From NCBI RefSeq assembly GCF_001050195.2, contig NZ_DF967965.1, positions 1,156,597 through 1,220,596 on the forward strand: a DNA stretch of 64,000 bases, written 5' to 3'. How positions within the stretch are numbered: the stretch's first letter is position 1; every line of letters begins with the position of its first letter. This document shows, piece after piece, positions 1,568 through 63,771 of the stretch. This DNA comes from Anaerolinea thermolimosa. Lineage in GTDB: Bacteria > Chloroflexota > Anaerolineae > Anaerolineales > Anaerolineaceae. A program made the translations under genes and the position numbers. The notes beneath the pieces are model-generated. The model ran no database searches and was not told where the DNA came from. It saw nothing but the letters and a program-made list of their open reading frames with translations.

Positions 1568-1933
1568 ATGAACGCCATTCACCCCAGGCTGCAAAGAGAA
1601 CGTCGAACGATTTATGCCATGCAGGTCATTTACTGCCGGGATCATCATGGGTTTCCATCAGGTGCTCTGTGCAGTTCCTGCCAGGAGCTATTCGACTATG
1701 CGATGATGCGCCTGTCTCGTTGCCCATATCAGGAGCGCAAGCCAACCTGTGCCCGTTGCCCAATTCATTGTTACCAGCCAGTGATGAGAGAACGTGTTCG
1801 TAAGATGATGCGGTATTCAGGCCCGAAAATGCTTTTGAAGCATCCAGTCTTGGCTATGGCTCATCTTCTTGATGGCCGGCGAAAAGCGCCACCTTTACCC
1901 CGGAGGCGGATCAGAGAACAGGCCACAGATTGA
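1568..1933 (+). CDS. YgbA-family (nitrous oxide-stimulated promoter family) protein
   Basis: A 121-residue cysteine-rich protein. Its conserved pattern has C23, a CxxC at 35-38, C52, then C61, C64 and C68 in a CARCPIHCY segment, followed by RYSGPKM near 82-88. This arrangement is characteristic of the E. coli YgbA family, which is induced in the NsrR (nitric oxide) regulon and may bind iron-sulfur. The biochemical role is not settled. It lies 67 bases after the LarA homologue on the same strand and is followed by a strong terminator, so the two could be cotranscribed. I see no NsrR site. The C-terminal tail is rich in Arg and Pro. Confidence 0.8.
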   Translation: MNAIHPRLQRERRTIYAMQVIYCRDHHGFPSGALCSSCQELFDYAMMRLSRCPYQERKPTCARCPIHCYQPVMRERVRKMMRYSGPKMLLKHPVLAMAHLLDGRRKAPPLPRRRIREQATD

Positions 1934-1976
1934 ATCAATCGTACCCGGGGTATGATAAGGCGTAGAGATCCGGGCC

Positions 1977-2020
1977 AGGTGCCCTTCATGTGAGATTCTC
2001 GGATGAAGGGTACCTGTTTT
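1977..2020 (+). terminator. Rho-independent terminator after the YgbA-family gene
   Basis: A 13-bp stem (1977-1989 with 2002-2014, one G.T wobble) encloses a 12-base loop and is followed by a T-rich tract at 2015-2022. It closes the rightward larA/ygbA unit just before the convergent GH172 gene. Confidence 0.85.
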
Positions 2021-2030
2021 CTTGTTTTTT

Positions 2031-3131
2031 TTAAATGACCTCCAGGTAATTGGCATCAGGAAGCCTGGGGAAAGGTGCATGAGGTTCTGCCTGGTACCAG
2101 AAGGCTGTGGTGGCGATATCATCCTGGCGGGGGAGATAACGACCTTTCCCTTCAAACGGAGAGCGCCAACCCAGGTCTTGAATGGTGGCACGCAGGTCTT
2201 TGTCAAAACGAATGGGGTCCATAATGTGCCAGCGATACAAGCCGAAACGCATGGTGCTTCTGTACAAACCGTCAGGTTGAATCACCTGTGGCATACCCAG
2301 AAATGCTGTGGAATACACTCCATACTGTCCACGTGGATGCTCGAAGCACCATGCGCCACCGAAATAATCTTCTGTGCCGGTACCGCAGTAGGTGGGGAAA
2401 TTGGTATCGCCATCGATGAAGAATTTAACTTCTCCTTCACCCCACCAGCCATCGTTGTTAACCCCGATGGCCATATAAGTGCCCACGTAATGACCTTTTC
2501 CTTGCACTCCATCCAGGATGGTATGGTCGGTCATATAAGCCAACGGGTTAGAACGCCGCCACTGGGCATGAAAATAAGCCATAGTTTCAGGGACGGTTGT
2601 GAGGGTGTAGTCAATCTGATAGAAGAAACCGGGTACCGGATCAGGAGTGAGGTTTTCGATGGTGATGCGGGCATGTTCTCGGAAAGGCATTTCCCAGTAA
2701 CTGTTGAAACCGCCGGCAGGGTTAACCGCGATGGGCAAAGAATTTACATTACAACGTACTCCCCAGCCGTTGCAAAAAAAATCACCGAGGGGGGTCTCAA
2801 CCGATGGCGTTGGTTCGTGATCCCAGTACATGCGGAGAACCAACCGCCTCCATGCTGCTGGATCGACGGTGATCCAGATGTGTTGAATAACACCTGGACC
2901 CTGAATGTCTGCCAGATCGGTCACTTCGCGGCCCTTGAGGGTGATGCAGGGGCGAACTTTCCAGCCCTGGCCCAGCTCGCGGGCGGGTCCATCGGCCAGG
3001 CCTTCAACCGACATGCCCCCTTTACCTTTTTCTCCGCGGGGGTTTTCTGCACTGATCGAGCGGTAGACAGCCTGAGAAAGCTCAGGCAGGTTGCCGAGAT
3101 GCAACCCGAGGCCATTGAAAGGAATCTGCAT
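2031..3131 (-). CDS. GH172 (DUF2961) glycoside hydrolase family protein
   Basis: A 366-residue cytoplasmic protein, with no signal peptide, of the DUF2961 family, now glycoside hydrolase family 172. Characterised members act on D-fructofuranosyl or D-arabinofuranosyl glycosides. The diagnostic elements are WGEGEVKFFIDGD (about 230-242, E232 and E234) and GTGTEDYFGGAW (about 250-261, E254), which hold the conserved glutamates. A GGAGG site 5 bases before ATG supports the start. Its 3' end faces the terminator of the preceding rightward gene. The 5' side abuts the left end of the tRNA-Val element by about 50 bases, so the element insertion may have replaced its original upstream region. Substrate unknown. 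Confidence 0.85.
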   Translation of the reverse strand: MQIPFNGLGLHLGNLPELSQAVYRSISAENPRGEKGKGGMSVEGLADGPARELGQGWKVRPCITLKGREVTDLADIQGPGVIQHIWITVDPAAWRRLVLRMYWDHEPTPSVETPLGDFFCNGWGVRCNVNSLPIAVNPAGGFNSYWEMPFREHARITIENLTPDPVPGFFYQIDYTLTTVPETMAYFHAQWRRSNPLAYMTDHTILDGVQGKGHYVGTYMAIGVNNDGWWGEGEVKFFIDGDTNFPTYCGTGTEDYFGGAWCFEHPRGQYGVYSTAFLGMPQVIQPDGLYRSTMRFGLYRWHIMDPIRFDKDLRATIQDLGWRSPFEGKGRYLPRQDDIATTAFWYQAEPHAPFPRLPDANYLEVI

Positions 3132-3182
3132 TGTGCCTCCAAAGCAGGAAAATGATGGGTGAAAGTAAGGAAAGGGGAGAGA

Positions 3183-3230
3183 GTGGGCGGAACAGGACTC
3201 GAACCTGCGACCTCATCTTTGTAAGAGATG
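3183..3230. repeat. attL: left 48-bp att repeat (truncated tRNA-Val 3' half)
   Basis: Identical to 9802-9849. On the minus strand it reads from the anticodon stem-loop to the tRNA 3' end. Beyond 3230 the sequence no longer pairs as a tRNA 5' half: the D-arm is lost and the acceptor is mismatched. It is therefore a tRNA fragment and not a second gene. Confidence 0.9.
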
Positions 3231-3657
3231 GCCGAAACACGGCTCACCATACCGCCACAGGTGGGGGTCATGACCGCGCCGACCGCCACATATAGCCTGT
3301 TTTTAATCTTCCGTCAGAGCGCCCACAAGGAGAAGATGTGTTCGGAGCGTGAATCTCGCGGGCTGTTTTCCATTGTAAGCCGCAGGCTAAAAAAGGCAAG
3401 AAATTTTAAGGTTTCTGTAAGGTGAGCCGTGATTGCGGCGAGGCTGGCGACGATGGTGGGCACGGCAGGAGGGCGTCCATCAAAAACCGTGCAAATTTGC
3501 ATGGTTTCTAAAGATACTGCCGCCGACTTATTGAACGTCTCTCCGCGTCTTGTGGCTACCGTCAAAGCCGTAGAGCGCGAAGCGCGCAGGTTTGGCGGGC
3601 CCGGCTGGCCAGGCGGATTAGAACGCTTGTCCGCGCCACAGGTGGGGGGGTTGTGAT
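3231..3657. other. Element left-end region without an intact gene; 15-bp direct repeats
   Basis: This 427-base stretch between attL and the first element gene holds no convincing intact gene. It contains a decayed HTH-like coding fragment at 3423-3656 (listed separately). A 15-bp direct repeat CGCCACAGGTGGGGG occurs at 3253-3267 and 3634-3648. Short repeats near an att site can be recombinase arm sites or the scar of an internal rearrangement. I cannot tell which. Confidence 0.4.
3423..3656 (+). pseudogene. Decayed ParB-like HTH fragment
   Basis: From 3426 the frame reads AVIAARLATM, then later AADLLNVSPRLVATVKAVER. This resembles the helix-turn-helix part of ParB-like and phage chromosome-partition proteins, where a run like RAVIAAxLA precedes AAxLLNVSxRxV. 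The codon just before is TGA (3423-3425) where the family usually has Arg, which suggests a CGA-to-TGA change. The upstream reading in the same frame is not ParB-like. No long N-terminal domain is present. It could also be translated from GTG 3429 as a 75-residue remnant. The assignment rests on a short motif only. Confidence 0.35.
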
Positions 3658-53853: not shown

Positions 53854-55479
53854 ATGCCGGGTGCCTCTGTGCTTATCGTAGATGATGATCGCAGTATTGT
53901 GCGATTATGTCAGCGCTTGCTGGAACGGGCTTCATACAGTGTCCTGGCTTCAACTGATCCGATTGAGGCGTTAAAAATCCTCAATGAAACGAAAGTGGAC
54001 TTGCTCCTTGCCGATATTCGCATGCCGGTCATGGATGGATTCGAACTGATCGAGCGTGCACGCCAGATCTACCCGGATCTGGCGGTTCTGGTCATGACGG
54101 GGTTTGGAACAGTAGATACTGCGGTTCAGGCACTTTATAAAGGCGTGGATGGCTTGATTTTGAAGCCCTTTGAAAACACTGCGGATCTGGTTCAGGCGGT
54201 TCAAAGGGTTATGCTTGATCGGAAACAGAAAGAAGAGGCTGCCCGGGCACAGGCACTGCGTCCTCTGTTTGATATCAGTGAGACTCTTCTCTCCGAAACC
54301 AATCCCCGGGTGCTGGAAACGCTGGTGCCTGACACCCTGATGGAGACCTTTCAGGCGCACCATGTGGGGGTTTTTCATTCATCTCAGGCAGGCCAAGAGG
54401 GGCAGTTGCTGATCTCGCGGAACATTCCAGACCCGGTTGCAACACCGGCGTGGGCAGGGTTGGTCCGTTTCGCTCAGGAATGCCAGGCTGAAACCGCTGT
54501 GAATATCCAGGAAGAGAGTGATCCGGTTGTTCAAAACCATCTAAGAAGCCTGGGGTGGTCTTCGATGATGGTTGCCCCGGTTCTGCGCAATCAACAACGA
54601 TACCTGTTTATTGTGGCGAGAAACATGCACACCCCGGTGTTCAGGGAATCAGAACTTGAATTGTTAACGATCCTTGCAAGGCAGTCGGTTGTCGCGATGG
54701 AAAATGCGCGACTGTACACCGATTTAAAAGAATATGTCAGGAAGGTGGAAGAATCTCAACGGGCCCTGGTTCAGGCGGAAAAAATGGCCGCTGTGGGCCG
54801 GCTTATGGCTTCAATGGCTCATGAAATTAACAACCCCTTACAATCGGTACGTAATTGTTTGCACCTTGCAATGCGTGAAGATATCAGCGATAACCAGCGG
54901 AGCAATTACCTTTCTATGACGGTGACAGAAGTGGAAAGGTTGGTCAATGCCGTCCGACACATGCTGGATTTTTATCGGCCCGGGACGACTGAGAAAGAGA
55001 TGGTCAATTTGAATGGAGTGATCGAGAGGGTAGCCCATTTACTCCAGGCTCAGCTGATCAGCGCAAATATTGATTTGGAGCTTTCTCTTCCCGATGAGCC
55101 CATACTGCTGTTTGGAGTCAAAGACCAATTACAACAGGTGGTTTTTAACCTGCTCTTAAATGGGATGGATGCAGTTGAGAATCAGATGACGAAAAAAATA
55201 TGGGTGGAGTTATCGAAACAAGGTGAGGATATTACGCTGACTATTGAAGACTCCGGGCGGGGGATCCCTGCAGAGGTACAGAATCGGTTATTTGAGCCCT
55301 TTATCAGTACAAAAAGCCACGGTACGGGTTTGGGGTTGTCGATCAGTTATACAATCGTAGAGGCTCATGGGGGGCAGTTGGCTCTGGTTCCGGGCCGGCA
55401 TGGTGAGGGAGCGTGTTTTGCGGTTCAACTGCCTGTTCAACCCAAGGAAGGATCCTATGGCAAAGATCCTGGTCGTTGA
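53854..55479 (+). CDS. Hybrid sensor kinase: receiver-GAF-HisKA-HATPase
   Basis: A 541-residue protein with an N-terminal CheY-like receiver (residues 1-120; D54 in LLADIRMPVMDG, K104 as the switch lysine), a GAF sensor domain (about 140-290), a dimerisation domain with H323 in SMAHEINNPLQSV, and an ATPase domain with GMDAVENQ, DSGRGIP and GTGLGLSISYTIV. It is soluble, so its sensor reads an internal signal or an upstream kinase's output through the receiver. A GGAG-type site precedes ATG. It overlaps the next gene by 23 bases, which encodes the likely response regulator. Confidence 0.9.
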   Translation: MPGASVLIVDDDRSIVRLCQRLLERASYSVLASTDPIEALKILNETKVDLLLADIRMPVMDGFELIERARQIYPDLAVLVMTGFGTVDTAVQALYKGVDGLILKPFENTADLVQAVQRVMLDRKQKEEAARAQALRPLFDISETLLSETNPRVLETLVPDTLMETFQAHHVGVFHSSQAGQEGQLLISRNIPDPVATPAWAGLVRFAQECQAETAVNIQEESDPVVQNHLRSLGWSSMMVAPVLRNQQRYLFIVARNMHTPVFRESELELLTILARQSVVAMENARLYTDLKEYVRKVEESQRALVQAEKMAAVGRLMASMAHEINNPLQSVRNCLHLAMREDISDNQRSNYLSMTVTEVERLVNAVRHMLDFYRPGTTEKEMVNLNGVIERVAHLLQAQLISANIDLELSLPDEPILLFGVKDQLQQVVFNLLLNGMDAVENQMTKKIWVELSKQGEDITLTIEDSGRGIPAEVQNRLFEPFISTKSHGTGLGLSISYTIVEAHGGQLALVPGRHGEGACFAVQLPVQPKEGSYGKDPGR

Positions 55480-56182
55480 CGATGAAGAAATTGCCCGAAC
55501 TTCACTCGCAGATATTCTACGATTGGAAGGGCATGAAATTAAGGCAGTCAGTTCTGGTGAACAGGCGGTTCAGGTACTGGAAAGTGAACCATTTGATGTA
55601 ATGCTTCTTGATCTGCGGATGCCCGGCATGGGAGGGATTGACGTACTTCGCGCGGTGGTGGACAGGCTCCAAAGCCTCCAGGTGATTGTCCTCACGGCGC
55701 ACGGGTCTCTGGATTCGGCAATCCAGGCCCTGCGTTTCAGAGTTCATGATTACATGCTGAAGCCGGTTTCTCCGGAGCAAATTATTGCAAGTATTGAGAA
55801 GGCTTTAGATGCCAGGCGGGCGGGCGATTCGGGTGGTTCTTCACATAGCAGAAAGACTAACCTTTTTTCCCTGCCGGGTGGAACCACTTTAGACCTGGCT
55901 AAACGGGTGGTTTGCTGGAAGGAGGGAGAAATCAACCTGACACCAACCGAAGCGCGTCTCCTGGGAATTTTAATGACGCATCTGGGTGAAGTGATCCCTC
56001 ACTCCGAACTGGTCAAGCATTGCCAGGGCTACCATGTGGATAATGAAGAGGCGGCACGTATTTTAAGGCCAGTTGTGAGCCGGTTAAGACAAAAGATGAC
56101 CCTGATTCCGGGATGGGGGGAATGGATTAAAAACGTGAGAGGTTCAGGGTATATGATTGAGTTCCCGCATGATCAAAGCTGA
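55457..56182 (+). CDS. OmpR/PhoB-type response regulator
   Basis: A 241-residue regulator with receiver D52 (MLLDLRMPGMGG) and a C-terminal winged helix of OmpR type (about 145-240), containing LTPTEARLLGILMTHLGEV and a recognition region before VRGSGYMIEF. An A-rich site AAGGAAGGA precedes ATG 55457, inside the kinase gene. It is probably phosphorylated by the overlapping kinase and binds direct-repeat promoters as a dimer. Its 3' end overlaps the convergent EamA gene by 10 bases. Confidence 0.9.
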   Translation: MAKILVVDDEEIARTSLADILRLEGHEIKAVSSGEQAVQVLESEPFDVMLLDLRMPGMGGIDVLRAVVDRLQSLQVIVLTAHGSLDSAIQALRFRVHDYMLKPVSPEQIIASIEKALDARRAGDSGGSSHSRKTNLFSLPGGTTLDLAKRVVCWKEGEINLTPTEARLLGILMTHLGEVIPHSELVKHCQGYHVDNEEAARILRPVVSRLRQKMTLIPGWGEWIKNVRGSGYMIEFPHDQS

Positions 56183-57147: not shown

Positions 57148-58809
57148 CTACCCAAGCAGTGCGCGAACTTCATCGAGTAGCTCGTCGCTCAGAAAATCGC
57201 CTTTCTGCATCAGGGTTTGAATGTGGCCGCGAAGGCGATCTTTCTCGGCTGGGGTTAATTCTTTTGCGGTTACCACGATGACCGGAATTTGAGACGTCTC
57301 CGGGTCTTTTTCGAGCTCCTGAATGACCGAGAAGCCGTCCATTTCGGGCATCATGAGGTCAAGGATGATCAGGTTGGGGCGCTCATTTTTGGCGATGGTA
57401 AGCGCCTCACGTCCGTTGGTGGCTTCAAAGAGGGTGTAGTTTCCCTGGGTTTGCAGAATTCTACGAATGAGCCGGCGGACATCGGGATTATCGTCAACGA
57501 TGGCAATTCTTGGGAAACGGTCGACAGAAACCTTAGTAAGGGCTGCCAGCAAGCCTTCCTCATTCCCTTCTTCCATGGAAGAGGGAAGTGTCACCTCGCG
57601 AGACCATCCCTCGCCGAGGATATTCCGTTCAATGGGCATGGTATGGCCGGTGCAGTTAATCACCACGGTTTCGTGGGGAGCGATGACACCATTACGAACG
57701 AGTTTAACCAGCCCGGCGAAGGCAACCGCAGCTGCCGGTTCTACTGAGAATCCTTCCATCTTTGCCAGGTAATGCATGGCACGAAAAGCCTCAGCATCAG
57801 AAACACTTTCGATGGTACCACCTGAATTCTCAAGCATTTTTTGTCTGAGAAGTGAGTAAGTGCGCCCCGGATTACCAGTAGCCAGAGTGGCGATTAGGGT
57901 TTGAGGATGTTGCACGGGGGTAGCAGTGTCTTTATTTTGTTTCCATGCATGAACCATGGGCGCACACCCCTCAGCCTGAATGGCGGCAATTTTGGGGACT
58001 TTATCGATCAGTCCCATATCGTACAATTCTCTGAAACCTTTGAGAACGCCAATGGGACCCATGCCCCCCGAGACGGCCTGAATATACCAGTCTGGAGCCC
58101 GCCAGGGACCGGACGACGAGGGCTGTAAATGTGCCAGTTGTTCTGCCACTTCATACGCGATGGTTTTCATAGACTCAATACAGGTGAGGGTCCGGGCTCC
58201 CAGATCAATACTCAAACCGCGTTGTCTGGCGAAATCGGACGCGACCTGCTTGGCCTGATCGTATGAGCCTGTAATTTTGATCACCTGGGTTCCGTAAATG
58301 GCCACTTCGCGCATTTTAGCCGCCGGTACCAGGCTGGTGAGAAAAGCCCAGAGTTTAATGGAAGCCCGGGCGGCGTAAGCAGAATACGAAATGGCTACAT
58401 TCCCGGTAGAGGCGATCACGAACTCATGAATGTTTGCTTCTTTCAATGCGGCTACCGTGATGGATGCCTGCCGGTCTTTGAAAGAGGCGGTTGGGCCCTG
58501 GCGTTCGTCCTTGATGAACAGATTAGGGTTCCCAAGCATCATGCCAAGGTTGGTTGCATGGATCAGAGGTGTGCCGCCCTCTCCCAGAGAAATGGAGCGA
58601 TTGGGGGCGGAAAGGGGGAGAAGTTCCTGATAACGCCAGATATCAAACGGGCGTTGTTTAACAAGATCATAAAGACGGTTCTTCAGACCATTCAGGTCGT
58701 ACCGGGCTTCGCGCCACAGGCTTCCACAAGCCGGGCAAGCCGGTTGAGCAATGGAAAAAGAAGAGCGGTTTCCGCAGTCAAGGCATTCTACGATGAAAGA
58801 GTTTGACAT
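57148..58809 (-). CDS. Threonine synthase-like enzyme fused to a CheY-like receiver domain
   Basis: A 553-residue fusion. Residues 1-400 are a PLP-dependent fold II enzyme resembling threonine synthase (ThrC): an N-terminal zinc ribbon (C9, C12, C25, C28), PLP lysine K111 in TASFKDRQA, and AVSGGMGPIGVLKGFREL binding the cofactor phosphate region. After a Glu-rich linker (about 405-430) comes a complete receiver domain (431-553), with acidic D439-D440, phospho-acceptor D484 in IILDLMMPEMDG and switch lysine K516. The frame is continuous and the linker is uninterrupted, so a sequencing join is unlikely. Threonine synthase converts O-phosphohomoserine to threonine. The fusion suggests control of its activity by phosphorylation, perhaps by the adjacent giant kinase. 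Confidence 0.85.
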   Translation of the reverse strand: MSNSFIVECLDCGNRSSFSIAQPACPACGSLWREARYDLNGLKNRLYDLVKQRPFDIWRYQELLPLSAPNRSISLGEGGTPLIHATNLGMMLGNPNLFIKDERQGPTASFKDRQASITVAALKEANIHEFVIASTGNVAISYSAYAARASIKLWAFLTSLVPAAKMREVAIYGTQVIKITGSYDQAKQVASDFARQRGLSIDLGARTLTCIESMKTIAYEVAEQLAHLQPSSSGPWRAPDWYIQAVSGGMGPIGVLKGFRELYDMGLIDKVPKIAAIQAEGCAPMVHAWKQNKDTATPVQHPQTLIATLATGNPGRTYSLLRQKMLENSGGTIESVSDAEAFRAMHYLAKMEGFSVEPAAAVAFAGLVKLVRNGVIAPHETVVINCTGHTMPIERNILGEGWSREVTLPSSMEEGNEEGLLAALTKVSVDRFPRIAIVDDNPDVRRLIRRILQTQGNYTLFEATNGREALTIAKNERPNLIILDLMMPEMDGFSVIQELEKDPETSQIPVIVVTAKELTPAEKDRLRGHIQTLMQKGDFLSDELLDEVRALLG

Positions 58810-58818
58810 AAATAAGAA

Positions 58819-61800
58819 TCAGGATACCTTTCTATTAGAACGGAACTGGCGCAGGGCAGATTCAAGCGTATTGAGCAATTCTTTTTCGCGTAGAAATCCC
58901 TTGGAATACAAACCGTGCCCAAAGTCTTCCAGTTCCTTATGTTGTTCGGGGGTTAAGTCTGCACCGGTGAGAATAATAACCGGAATGTTCTGATAAAGCT
59001 CTGCACTGCGCAGTCTGGCGAGCAAGTCGAATCCATTGAGACCAGGCATAAAGAGGTCGAGAATGATTGCGTCGGGGACATTTTGCTGAATGCTTTCCCA
59101 GCCCGCCTCTCCGCCTTGAGCCAGCTGCACATGGAAGCGATCATTCGCTTCGATCATCTTTTGAACCAACCGAAGGTCTTCTGAATCATCGTCGATTACC
59201 AGAATGTTTTTGATTTCTCCGGTGAAATTCAAACGATTGAGAGCATTGAGAAGGTCTTCAGAAAGGAAGGGCTTGACCAGGTAATCGGCTGCACCTAAAT
59301 TAAACCCTTTTTCTTCTTCCTCAAGAATGGAGCAGACGACAATCGGGATATTCCGGGTTTCAGGGTCGTTCTTAAGGGCCTTCATCACCTGCCAGCCGTC
59401 CATTTCGGGCATCATAATATCAAGCGTGATGGCAAATGGCTTCACCTCTTTTGCCCGCTCCACTGCGGTGCGCGGGTTGGTGTGCGGAATAATTTGATAT
59501 CCTTGAGGTTGTAGATAACGCTCATAAAGATGAATGACCTGCAGATCGTCATCGATGGCCAGCACAGTATATCCTTCGCTGAGAGGTGAAGCCGTTGGAG
59601 CACTCTCGGTGACGGGTAAGGGTAAAGTGAAGAAGAAAGTACTCCCTTTCCCCACCTCACTGGAGAGCAGACCAATCCTGCCGCCATGGAGTTCGATGAG
59701 GGAACGGCAGATCGAAAGGCCCAGCCCTGTGCCTCCGGTTTTGCGGGTGGGAGAATCGTCTACCTGAGAGAAAGGCAGGAAAAGTTTAGACTGATCTTCA
59801 GGGGCAATGCCGGGGCCTGTGTCGGTGACAGTAACCATGACTTCTGGTTTTCCGTCGGGGCTTAATTGCTGGCAGGCCTCTACGGTGATAGAGCCTTCTT
59901 CTGTGAATTTAGCGGCATTAGAAAGGAAATTGATCAATACCTGGCGCACGCGAATGGCATCGGCTCGCACAAGGGGCAGGCTATCGGGCAGGTTGGTAAG
60001 AAGTTTAATGGGTTTATCCTTGACAAGCCCAACAGCTGTGGACATAGCCGAGTTGATCAGATCAAGTAGATTGACATCGGAGAAAGACAGCTCCATTTTA
60101 CCGGCTTCGATTTTGGACAGGTCGAGGATATCGTTGATGAGCATCAGAAGGTGCTGGCCAGAATTGTAGATTGCGGTCAGATCCTGAGTTTGAAGCTCAT
60201 TGATGGGGCCGTCAATTCCTTTTAAGATAACTCTGGAGAAGCCAATAATGGAGTTCAGGGGGGTACGCAATTCATGGCTCATATTAGCCAGGAACTGGCT
60301 TTTAACCCGATCAACCTCGCGCATATCTTCGATGGCTTTCTGCGAGAGTTCGTAGGCGCGGGCATTTTCTATGGCAATGGCAATCTGGTCGGCCAGGATA
60401 CCCAGGACAAATACATCGTCTTTCGAGAATGCGTTGGTACTAGTTGCATGAATATCGAGGGCACCGATAATCCGATCACCCACTTTGAGGGGGAGCCCAA
60501 TTTCTGCTCGAGTCTGGAGGAGCAGGGAGTTGGGGACAAACAGGTCTGATGAAGCCACATCGTTGAGAATCAAAGGTTGCCCCGAAGCGACAACCGTACC
60601 AATCACTGAACGGGAGCCAATAGCCACCTTATGACCGCGCCGTTTGAGTTCTGTACCGGCTGGCTCAGTGGCCTCCCGGATCACTGCAAATTGAGATTGA
60701 GGATCCACCAGGTAAATGGAGGTGTGGTAAAAACCAAACCTTTGCACCAGCAGATTGACCATCCGCGAGAGGAGCACATCCTGTGCGAGGGTGCTTGTTG
60801 TATCACGAGCGATTTCGGAAGCCGTTTGAAGTTCCAGAGCGCGCCGTTGAGCTTCTCGGAGCAGGCGTTGTTTTTCAACCGCAACTGCAACACCGTTCGC
60901 CACAGTACGGAATAACCGCACATCAGCCGGATCGAAGTTAAGGCTGGCTCTGGCCGTGGCTGCGAGGGCGCCAATGCTGCGCCCGCCAGTTCTCATGGGA
61001 ACGAAGCATGCGGATTGGATGTGGTGACGCTCCAGCGTGAGACGGGTGGCCCGGTCGATGACGGGGTCCTCGAGGTTGCTCACTGCCAGACCTTCTTCCG
61101 GGAGGATACGAATCACCGGTAATTCCTGAATGTCGAAGCGGGTTCCCTTTAAATCGAGTTTGCCCATGCTGTCATAAAAGCCACTCACTTCAACCCCGGT
61201 CATTTCTCCATCTTCATTGAGATCGGCAAGGAAAAGAAAACAGCAATCGGCACCGCGCGGGAGAACATTGTTAACCACCAGGGACACCATATCCTCGGGT
61301 TCCTGAGCCTGAGCAATACCGCTGGTGATGTTATAGAGAAGGGCAGTCTCTGCCAGGGCTGTCTGAGTTTGTTCAAACAGGCGAAGGTTTTCAACGGCGA
61401 TGGTCAACTGGTCAACCAGAGGCGGCAGAAGGCGTTTCTCACGGTTGGTAAAGATATGTCGGCGTTCACCTTCAAGGAGCAAGGCGCCGATTTGCCGCTT
61501 CCCGGAGATCATTGGCAGGATGCAGAGTGAAGTGACGTTCTGCCGCAGGAGTTCCTGCCGCATGGCTTCATCCATAAGGGCTTCACGAATGTCTTCGTAA
61601 AAAGCCTGGGAGGAATTTTGTAATGGCTTGTCGTAGATGGGTCTGGGAAGCTCCACTCCCACGGGAGGTGGAGGCGTGCCGTGCCCGCTATACCAGTTTG
61701 CCTGGACAGAAATCCTGGAGACTTTGTTGTATGCATCGACATCAAAGAGGAGCATCACACCGCGGTTAATTTCGGCGGGTTTCACGCCATTGATGACCGC

Positions 61801-63771
61801 TGCAAGCATTTCCTGGAAGTCATTGGAAATGGCCAGCCGGTTGCTCGCGTTGTAGAGGCTTTCTGTTTCGTCCAGGTTGGCGCGCAGCTGGGCAAGCAGG
61901 TTTTCGCGGATGTAGGTGTTGGCAATGGCGTCAGCGGCCACGCGCAGCAGGTTGATTTCATCTCTTTGCCATTGACGCTGCTGGTCGATTTGCTCAAAGA
62001 GTAGTAAGTCTGGAGTGGTAGAGCTTCCTGAGATGGAGAGAATGAGGACGGATTGGATATTTTGGGAGGAGAAGAAGTGCTGTGCGTTTTCCGCCTGATC
62101 GGAAGATAGCGGAAGAGCCCAGCCATCGATGCGAAGGTTGGGTATGAGGGAACTGAATACTTCGTGGTTGATCTGATGGATCTTGCTTCGGTCGAACAAA
62201 TAAGCGACCAGGGGGGAGGTCCAATCTTCACCCAATTGCCAGCTCTGTGAGCTCTCTTCATAATGAAGCAGGTAAACCCGATTGGCCTGCGATGCCTGTC
62301 CCAGGTATCGCAGTACATCTCCAAGAGCCTGGGTGCCTAACTCTGAAAGGGTGGCCACCGCGCGGGCAACGCCAGCCTGGTAACGCTCGCGGTTCTCAAT
62401 GGCTTTCAGGGCTTCCTGCATTTGTTGGAAGAGATTGGCATTTTCGAGGGCTGTGGCGGCCTGTGCAGCAGCGGTTGATAACAACTCAAGGTGAACTTCA
62501 TCAAATTGAGGGGCATTTTCCTGGTCAAAATCTTGAATCACCAGTGCACCACTTTGATGAGCCCCCATGGAGATGGGAATACCAATCAGAGAAGCAGGTA
62601 CCCGATTCTCGACAGTGATTCCAAGCTCTGCCAGCCGCTGCCCGGCCTGGTGTGTGATCAACAGAGGGGAGCGGGAAGCCATAAGATATTCTGGAAGCCC
62701 ATTCGCGGCAGGACGGCTTGCGACCTGCCGATTGATGCCATACTCACGATAGACCGGAAAACTTAGTTGATGGGTGTTGTGGTCCAGAATGCAAATATAG
62801 AGGTTGCGGTCGTCGAGTACCTGCCCGGCCATTTCAGCCAGGGTGTTAAAAATGGCATCCCGTGAGGTGAGACCGGTGAGGCGCTGACCGATCTGGTTAA
62901 GCATCGCGAGGTCGCGGTTGCGATGAAGAATGACTTCTTCAGCGCGCATACGTTCGGCGAGTTCCTGCTGGGCGGCCTGGTAAAGACGGGCATTTTCCAG
63001 CGCCAGGCTGAGCTGGGTGGCCACGTCCATCACCATTTGCTGTTCGTCTTCGCTCCAGGTGCGTCTTTCAGCCTCATCTACGACTTCAATGAGCATATCA
63101 CCCATATCGGTAACATTCACTGGCACGGCAATTGTTGCGGGGTGGTCTTCTCTGCCGTGAATGACTTTCATCTGTCGTTCTTTGAGACTGAGCTTTCCGG
63201 CAGGTGTTCGCGGCGCGAAAGCAGAAGACAGGGCATTCTGCCTGCTATGAGTTCCACTGGATGGCCGGGAACGAATGGGAAGGGTGGCAGGTGAGGGAAT
63301 GGATGATGCAGTTGCTCTTTCTGGTGAGGATGGAGAACGAAGTGTTCGCTTTTCAGATTGAGTTTCCTGGATGAGCTGGATGATGCCACGCCATGCTTCG
63401 CTTTCACCATTCACAGGCGCATGGAGAATGACGAAGCGGGCTTTTCTCCAATTACCGGAGGCATCGCGGATGGAGATTTCCGATTCAGAAGGGAATTCTT
63501 TTGCCTGGAATAAACGCTTTACGGCTTCTATCGAGGATGGATCGAGCATGAATTCATCTGCCGGTTGGTGGATCCAATCCTGTGGAGAAAACCCCAGACT
63601 CGCAATTTCAGCAGAACAAGAAAGATAGCGAAGGTTCTGGTCTGCGGTCCAGTGCCACCCTGATGGCGAGGTGACATCCTGAGAGCTGGCCCCCGGCGCA
63701 GGAGTATCCACGACCTCATTCAGGTTTGAGAAGAGAGAATTAAGCCGGTTGTGAAATTGTTTCTTGGACAT
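58819..63771 (-). CDS. Giant hybrid histidine kinase (PAS, about six GAF, two receivers)
   Basis: A 1650-residue soluble kinase. Order: PAS-like 38-135; a Ser/Pro-rich linker 140-195; a shortened GAF-like segment about 200-268; five fuller GAF domains at roughly 288-450, 465-625, 635-800, 808-970 and 982-1140; HisKA with H1166 in MSHELRTPLNS; HATPase with N-box near 1283 and GTGLGLSIC; then two receivers (about 1403-1515 with LDIMMPEMDG, and 1523-1640 with LDLFMPGLNG). No membrane segment is visible. The multiple GAFs suggest integration of several small-molecule signals. AGGAG lies before ATG 63771, and its start overlaps the end of the ParA-type gene. It is 9 bases upstream of the threonine synthase-receiver gene. 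Confidence 0.9.
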   Translation of the reverse strand: MSKKQFHNRLNSLFSNLNEVVDTPAPGASSQDVTSPSGWHWTADQNLRYLSCSAEIASLGFSPQDWIHQPADEFMLDPSSIEAVKRLFQAKEFPSESEISIRDASGNWRKARFVILHAPVNGESEAWRGIIQLIQETQSEKRTLRSPSSPERATASSIPSPATLPIRSRPSSGTHSRQNALSSAFAPRTPAGKLSLKERQMKVIHGREDHPATIAVPVNVTDMGDMLIEVVDEAERRTWSEDEQQMVMDVATQLSLALENARLYQAAQQELAERMRAEEVILHRNRDLAMLNQIGQRLTGLTSRDAIFNTLAEMAGQVLDDRNLYICILDHNTHQLSFPVYREYGINRQVASRPAANGLPEYLMASRSPLLITHQAGQRLAELGITVENRVPASLIGIPISMGAHQSGALVIQDFDQENAPQFDEVHLELLSTAAAQAATALENANLFQQMQEALKAIENRERYQAGVARAVATLSELGTQALGDVLRYLGQASQANRVYLLHYEESSQSWQLGEDWTSPLVAYLFDRSKIHQINHEVFSSLIPNLRIDGWALPLSSDQAENAQHFFSSQNIQSVLILSISGSSTTPDLLLFEQIDQQRQWQRDEINLLRVAADAIANTYIRENLLAQLRANLDETESLYNASNRLAISNDFQEMLAAVINGVKPAEINRGVMLLFDVDAYNKVSRISVQANWYSGHGTPPPPVGVELPRPIYDKPLQNSSQAFYEDIREALMDEAMRQELLRQNVTSLCILPMISGKRQIGALLLEGERRHIFTNREKRLLPPLVDQLTIAVENLRLFEQTQTALAETALLYNITSGIAQAQEPEDMVSLVVNNVLPRGADCCFLFLADLNEDGEMTGVEVSGFYDSMGKLDLKGTRFDIQELPVIRILPEEGLAVSNLEDPVIDRATRLTLERHHIQSACFVPMRTGGRSIGALAATARASLNFDPADVRLFRTVANGVAVAVEKQRLLREAQRRALELQTASEIARDTTSTLAQDVLLSRMVNLLVQRFGFYHTSIYLVDPQSQFAVIREATEPAGTELKRRGHKVAIGSRSVIGTVVASGQPLILNDVASSDLFVPNSLLLQTRAEIGLPLKVGDRIIGALDIHATSTNAFSKDDVFVLGILADQIAIAIENARAYELSQKAIEDMREVDRVKSQFLANMSHELRTPLNSIIGFSRVILKGIDGPINELQTQDLTAIYNSGQHLLMLINDILDLSKIEAGKMELSFSDVNLLDLINSAMSTAVGLVKDKPIKLLTNLPDSLPLVRADAIRVRQVLINFLSNAAKFTEEGSITVEACQQLSPDGKPEVMVTVTDTGPGIAPEDQSKLFLPFSQVDDSPTRKTGGTGLGLSICRSLIELHGGRIGLLSSEVGKGSTFFFTLPLPVTESAPTASPLSEGYTVLAIDDDLQVIHLYERYLQPQGYQIIPHTNPRTAVERAKEVKPFAITLDIMMPEMDGWQVMKALKNDPETRNIPIVVCSILEEEEKGFNLGAADYLVKPFLSEDLLNALNRLNFTGEIKNILVIDDDSEDLRLVQKMIEANDRFHVQLAQGGEAGWESIQQNVPDAIILDLFMPGLNGFDLLARLRSAELYQNIPVIILTGADLTPEQHKELEDFGHGLYSKGFLREKELLNTLESALRQFRSNRKVS

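Follow-up and report, generated by a model that had tools for sequence, protein, structure and literature searches.

A threonine synthase-like PLP enzyme fused to a C-terminal receiver domain beside a histidine kinase gene in Anaerolinea thermolimosa and other Chloroflexota

The window, a 64,000-nucleotide stretch of Anaerolinea thermolimosa DNA, contains the gene for a fusion protein in which a threonine synthase (ThrC)-like PLP enzyme is followed by a receiver domain. The gene is a single unbroken open reading frame with an ATG start, and it lies on the minus strand in the order ParA-type ATPase, GAF hybrid histidine kinase, fusion, and EamA exporter (Table 1). Upstream of the ATPase gene are genes for a Cache-HAMP-GAF protein and a GAF protein, and this order is repeated in approximately 23 loci. 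On the plus strand (53854-56182), the overlapping genes for a REC-GAF-histidine kinase and an OmpR-type response regulator converge on the EamA gene, and the pair is kept beside many fusion loci. Promoter-like matches in the operon region show no excess over chance, and terminator-like matches are slightly above chance.

Table 1. Genes and protein features at the fusion locus, with positions in the window.
Feature	Position	Strand	Evidence or remark
REC-GAF-histidine kinase, 541 aa	53854..55479	plus	convergent; position conserved in ~17 loci
OmpR-type response regulator, 271 aa as called	55367..56182	plus	position conserved in ~21 loci
EamA/DMT-type exporter, 317 aa	56173..57126	minus	Pfam EamA, E 1e-24; starts 21 bp past fusion
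ThrC-like PLP enzyme with C-terminal receiver, 553 aa	57148..58809	minus	ORF, Pfam, full-length homologues
Receiver (REC), residues 433-553	57151..57513	minus	Pfam Response_reg; conservation of D440, D484, K536
Variable linker (393-417) and conserved short helix (418-432, GLLxAL)	57514..57633	minus	conservation 0.45, then 0.63
PLP fold type II domain, residues 57-392	57634..58641	minus	Pfam PALP, Foldseek, conserved residues
N-terminal zinc ribbon, C9-x2-C12 ... C25-x2-C28	58726..58785	minus	all four Cys in 99/99 homologues
Hybrid histidine kinase, 1650 aa: GAFs, HisKA (His1166), HATPase_c, two RECs	58819..63771	minus	upstream; gap of 9 bp to fusion
ParA/MinD-type ATPase, C-terminal 86 aa of 260 aa	63740..64000	minus	extends beyond window

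The fusion protein matches Pfam PALP over residues 73-388 (E 5e-60) and Pfam Response_reg over residues 435-536 (E 1e-22). Its Schiff-base lysine, K111, is encoded at 58477-58479. The receiver contains the full set of residues of its family: the acid pair D439/D440, the phospho-Asp D484 (codon 57358-57360), T514, and the conserved lysine K536 (codon 57202-57204) within the motif MQKG. An earlier note on this DNA, made from the sequence alone, had described an intact one-frame fusion of a zinc ribbon, a PLP enzyme with K111, and a receiver with D484, and the open reading frame, the Pfam matches, and 99 homologues confirm it. The same note took K516 for the receiver lysine, which is wrong: K516, in VTAKEL, is itself well conserved but directly follows T514-A515, while K536 is present in all 98 homologues that have its column. 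An AlphaFold model of modest confidence, built from 19 sequences (mean pLDDT 77, pTM 0.67), has as its best PDB matches by Foldseek the threonine synthases of Aquifex, Mycobacterium, Thermus, and Bacillus. Region 388-430 around the linker is of low confidence in this model (pLDDT <50), and the interface between receiver and PLP domain is unreadable.

Conservation was read from 99 distinct fusion sequences aligned end to end. The four zinc-ribbon cysteines, K111, N137, D440, and D484 are invariant; S247-G-G-x-G251 and H389 are likewise kept in all 99, and position 514 is occupied by Thr or Ser. Conservation averages 0.72 across the PLP domain, 0.64 across the receiver, and 0.45 across the linker, and it rises again at the GLLxAL helix before the receiver. 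By this alignment, both domains are strongly constrained in their catalytic core. D101, E102, R103, Q114, and Q244 are family-specific invariants (99/99), which suggests one uniform substrate that differs from that of ThrC. Approximately ten homologues (L032, L036, L037, L193-L195, L214, L218, L220, L230) carry a second C-terminal receiver, are approximately 690-715 residues long, and are often followed by a stand-alone receiver gene.

Full-length homologues of identical architecture, with 48-83% identity, are present in dozens of independent genomes, and the fusion occurs in about half of the nearest 40 genomes. A GTDB-wide scan, whose patterns were derived from the window protein alone and which picks up close relatives and may miss distant ones, found approximately 20 full-length homologues, all in records titled Chloroflexota. 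Among 298 sampled Anaerolineae genomes, 138 have a match at E 1e-80 or better; 37 of these carry stand-alone enzymes only, and approximately 100 carry the fusion or a fragment thereof. Across the phylum the fusion is rarer than in Anaerolineae, at 34 of 301 sampled genomes, yet it is found in other classes too, including in the predator Herpetosiphon aurantiacus. The chromosome of H. aurantiacus 114-95T has been published and spans 6,346,587 bp (PMC3368417); the fusion homologue of this species lies at about 1,409,295-1,410,932 in CP000875. Given this spread, the fusion is old.

The fusion was absent from 151 genomes of the phylum to which genome G604, with a record titled Armatimonadota, belongs, in a scan run without a positive control, and from five genomes with records titled as other phyla; no match to plasmid records spans 80% of the fusion protein. 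One record titled Pleurocapsa minor GSE-CHR-MK-17-07R (L055, genome G599) contains two fusion copies with coordinates identical to those in an Anaerolineae genome (G094), and its cyanobacterial title appears to be wrong.

The 99 distinct full-length homologues rule out chance read-through or an assembly artefact as the origin of the fusion. Intact fusions score approximately 690 bits or more and cover essentially the entire model, stand-alone relatives score approximately 300 or less, and matches between these values are shortened or interrupted copies. Loss of the receiver at residues 405-430 by a stop or frameshift, which the earlier note named as evidence that would speak against its reading, was searched for, and no stop at the linker that yields a receiver-less enzyme was found among the copies examined. 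Incomplete copies instead reflect contig ends (L251, L252, L253, L255, L258, L260), frameshifts beyond which receiver sequence can still be detected (L254, L256, L257), or a single deletion, and receiver loss in relatives is accordingly rejected. The deletion, in L259 (G040:C1:131000-136000, about 1894-3474; also L156:8897-10474), follows fusion residue 228 and places residues 1-228 in frame with an EamA exporter gene. The resulting 525-residue open reading frame is found in one genome only, and its enzyme part is 61% identical to the fusion. A 1784-residue frame in genome G135 was considered as a kinase-ThrC-REC fusion and rejected, as its first part is an out-of-frame high-GC open reading frame.

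The enzyme half shares with ThrC (TIGR00260; 1uim/1v7c, 2zsj, 2d1f, 6cgq/6nmx) the PLP fold type II domain, the SFKDR lysine, the STGN loop that holds the carboxylate, and a Thr or Ser at the cofactor nitrogen, and it is approximately 30% identical to the solved threonine synthases over approximately 335 residues. Unlike ThrC, it lacks T88, N154, S155, R160, N188, and N191 (Thermus numbering), adds a zinc ribbon and a receiver, and belongs to a separate clade. These six positions are kept in all five solved threonine synthases used as reference for the pocket alignment and in the genome's own ThrC, and they are replaced in 42 of 42 fusions. Several of them bind the phosphate of O-phosphohomoserine in the Thermus enzyme. 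At position 160, nearly all of the 99 fusions have A, S, C, G, T, or P, and some fusions have Arg or Lys at the next residue. In a phylogenetic tree, the fusions form one clade (100/100 support) that has a long stem and is separate from the ThrC clade containing the genome's own enzyme; the tree program warns of long branches meeting, which leaves the sister group of the fusions uncertain and their monophyly well supported.

The A. thermolimosa genome carries four other ThrC-like proteins. One is a dedicated ThrC (G000:C3:25471-26523) that is 56% identical to B. subtilis ThrC and directly adjoins thrB (G000:C3:24563-25444). It scores 296.3 bits against TIGR00260, whereas the fusion scores 162.6 bits, below the cut-off of 167.1; fusion homologues range from approximately 133 to approximately 189, and several exceed the cut-off by about 1 to 21 bits. 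The best NCBIfam match of the fusion is the PRK08197 model NF006050, at 263.7-264.6 bits and below the cut-off of 303. Cysteate synthase (TIGR03844) was rejected at 118.8 bits against a cut-off of 324.9. Neither thrB nor hom was seen among the identified recurrent neighbours of the fusion, and 17 of 20 fusion-bearing genomes have a separate strong ThrC. Three genomes (G203, G049, G076) have the fusion with neither thrB nor a strong ThrC detected, and the fusion there is therefore without an evident supply of O-phosphohomoserine. Another three fusion-bearing genomes have ThrC and no thrB match, and the thrB model may thus miss unusual homoserine kinases. The fusion enzyme is probably not the real threonine synthase of the cell.

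The zinc ribbon and PLP domain are also shared with the PRK08197 (NF006050) "threonine synthases". These have the motifs KARG, TAGN, and STFKEPYR, whereas the fusion has KDRQ, STGN, and no Arg. In three genomes, the fusion is followed closely downstream by a stand-alone gene of the PRK08197 "threonine synthase" type (L152:4248-5546, L035:9903-11270, L228:10365-11552), hinting at a shared pathway.

The gene that precedes the fusion is on the same strand and at most 60 bp away in 53 of 68 loci. From these neighbourhoods, 38 upstream proteins were chosen as same-strand neighbours of 600-1700 residues; within that set, which does not stand for every locus, all 38 have GAF, HisKA, and HATPase_c domains and the invariant phospho-His, and each thus supplies the nearby candidate cognate kinase looked for beside a response regulator. 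Receivers of their own are present in 27 of the 38 kinases and missing from 11. The gene after the fusion (69 loci) encodes an EamA protein in 33 cases, a stand-alone receiver in 13, and a second REC-kinase of approximately 420 residues in 12. Neighbour genes were called with a simple greedy open reading frame picker, and single loci may be wrong while the trend is strong.

It is proposed, with moderate confidence, that the fusion works as a response regulator and that a re-purposed PLP enzyme, switched by a kinase, is its effector. The strong constraint on the catalytic core of both domains underlies this reading. The GAF histidine kinase encoded just upstream would autophosphorylate, and its phosphate would pass to D484 either directly or via the kinase's own receivers. 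Through the flexible linker and the short conserved helix, the phosphorylated receiver would then alter the dimer arrangement of the PLP domain or access to it, and thereby switch its activity. The PLP domain would be a descendant of the threonine synthase family that was re-purposed long ago, and it probably acts on another small amino acid by beta-elimination or replacement, since the cofactor machinery (the lysine, the STGN loop, and the Thr/Ser at the cofactor nitrogen) is kept and the residues that distinguish ThrC are lost. Where the operon takes its commonest form, the EamA exporter may handle the product of this reaction or a related amino acid. Phosphorylation of D484 by the adjacent kinase and a resulting catalytic change are suggested by the gene order and by the conserved residues; the allosteric switching, the reaction type, and the exporter link are likewise putative. 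Because 27 of the 38 upstream kinases have their own receiver, the phosphate may go elsewhere. Receivers are N-terminal in most response regulators, and the C-terminal position of this one, which resembles that in hybrid kinases, counts against the proposal, as do the lack of EamA in many loci and the homologues that score above the TIGR00260 cut-off. These sequences are most economically read as joining two-component signalling directly to a PLP enzyme, because the fusion is conserved, both halves keep their key residues, and the kinase gene ends 9 bp upstream. For the same reasons, the earlier note's proposal that signalling is coupled to metabolism is partly supported; its threonine synthesis part is not.

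That part corresponds to an alternative in which the protein is a true threonine synthase under phosphorylation control, with the receiver tuning threonine supply and EamA exporting the excess. The nearest structural and sequence relatives are indeed threonine synthases, zinc-ribbon ThrC-like proteins bear that name, several homologues score just above the TIGR00260 cut-off, and the threonine/homoserine exporter RhtA belongs to the EamA family. The dedicated thrC-thrB pair in the same genome, the six lost ThrC positions, the two cut-offs that the window protein misses, and the three fusion-bearing genomes without detectable thrB or strong ThrC make this account very unlikely. A different role for the PLP domain, as a non-catalytic sensor of PLP or an amino acid that gates the receiver, which in turn acts on the kinase or partner proteins, would fit the C-terminal receiver, since the PLP part then resembles an input module, and would suit an operon rich in sensor domains (GAF, Cache). 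It is nonetheless unlikely, given that the catalytic lysine and cofactor motifs are unchanged in 99 of 99 fusions, beyond what ligand sensing alone usually keeps.

The receiver could also serve the kinase complex as a sink for phosphate, a step in a relay, or a tag for localisation while the enzyme is constitutive. C-terminal receivers often act this way in hybrid kinases, and the tandem second receivers and the stand-alone receivers encoded directly downstream resemble relay parts. Such a role is quite improbable, however, as no intact member of the fusion enzyme family was found without a receiver, and the fusion receivers form essentially one clade, separate from the receivers of neighbouring kinases, a pattern that long co-evolution with the enzyme would produce. 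Recent copying of the receiver from a neighbouring kinase is unsupported by the same clade. It is similarly improbable, as a further elaboration, that the enzyme makes an amino-acid-derived signal that EamA exports and that the GAF/Cache proteins and kinase of the operon sense, with receiver phosphorylation closing a feedback loop on synthesis; filamentous Chloroflexota would then have a cell-cell signalling system whose synthase is switched by a kinase.

The preferred reading, a kinase-switched PLP effector, has partial parallels among known systems. The outputs of known receivers mostly bind to DNA, to cyclic dinucleotides, or to proteins. As in CheB, PleD, and PorX, the receiver of the fusion is covalently linked to an enzyme; unlike in these proteins, it sits at the C-terminus and has a PLP amino-acid enzyme as its effector. 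In the response regulator PorX, the effector is an unusual metalloenzyme (PMC11320123). In the CqsA/CqsS and LqsA/LqsS systems, the gene for a PLP enzyme that makes a signal adjoins a sensor kinase gene (PMC3376566). CqsA and LqsA have an aminotransferase-like fold type I, lack a receiver, and have no homology to the fold type II fusion, and the likeness is one of analogy only. Response regulators with enzyme effectors and PLP enzymes beside sensor kinases are already known; no description of a receiver joined to a PLP enzyme was found in the literature searched, which did not extend to the main response-regulator censuses (Galperin's reviews).

With a receiver so deeply conserved on a PLP enzyme, a histidine kinase would be wired post-translationally and directly to amino-acid chemistry, and signals may in this way steer a small-molecule reaction directly rather than via gene expression. 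The family is also an annotation trap, as it can automatically receive the label "threonine synthase" in organisms that mostly possess another. H. aurantiacus is cultured and completely sequenced, and its homologue makes the idea directly testable.

Two further gene associations were seen at fusion loci. Three similar tandem genes of 279-302 residues with the motif DIDTTRPSAARMYDYYLGGFHNF lie just upstream of the fusion-locus kinase in L213 (3058-5644). A gene for a GNAT-like acetyltransferase of approximately 290-300 residues adjoins subfamily-2 and Herpetosiphon fusion loci in five sampled loci (positions including L209:2038-2949, L229:1729-2595, L033:10469-11365, and L036:10044-10928).
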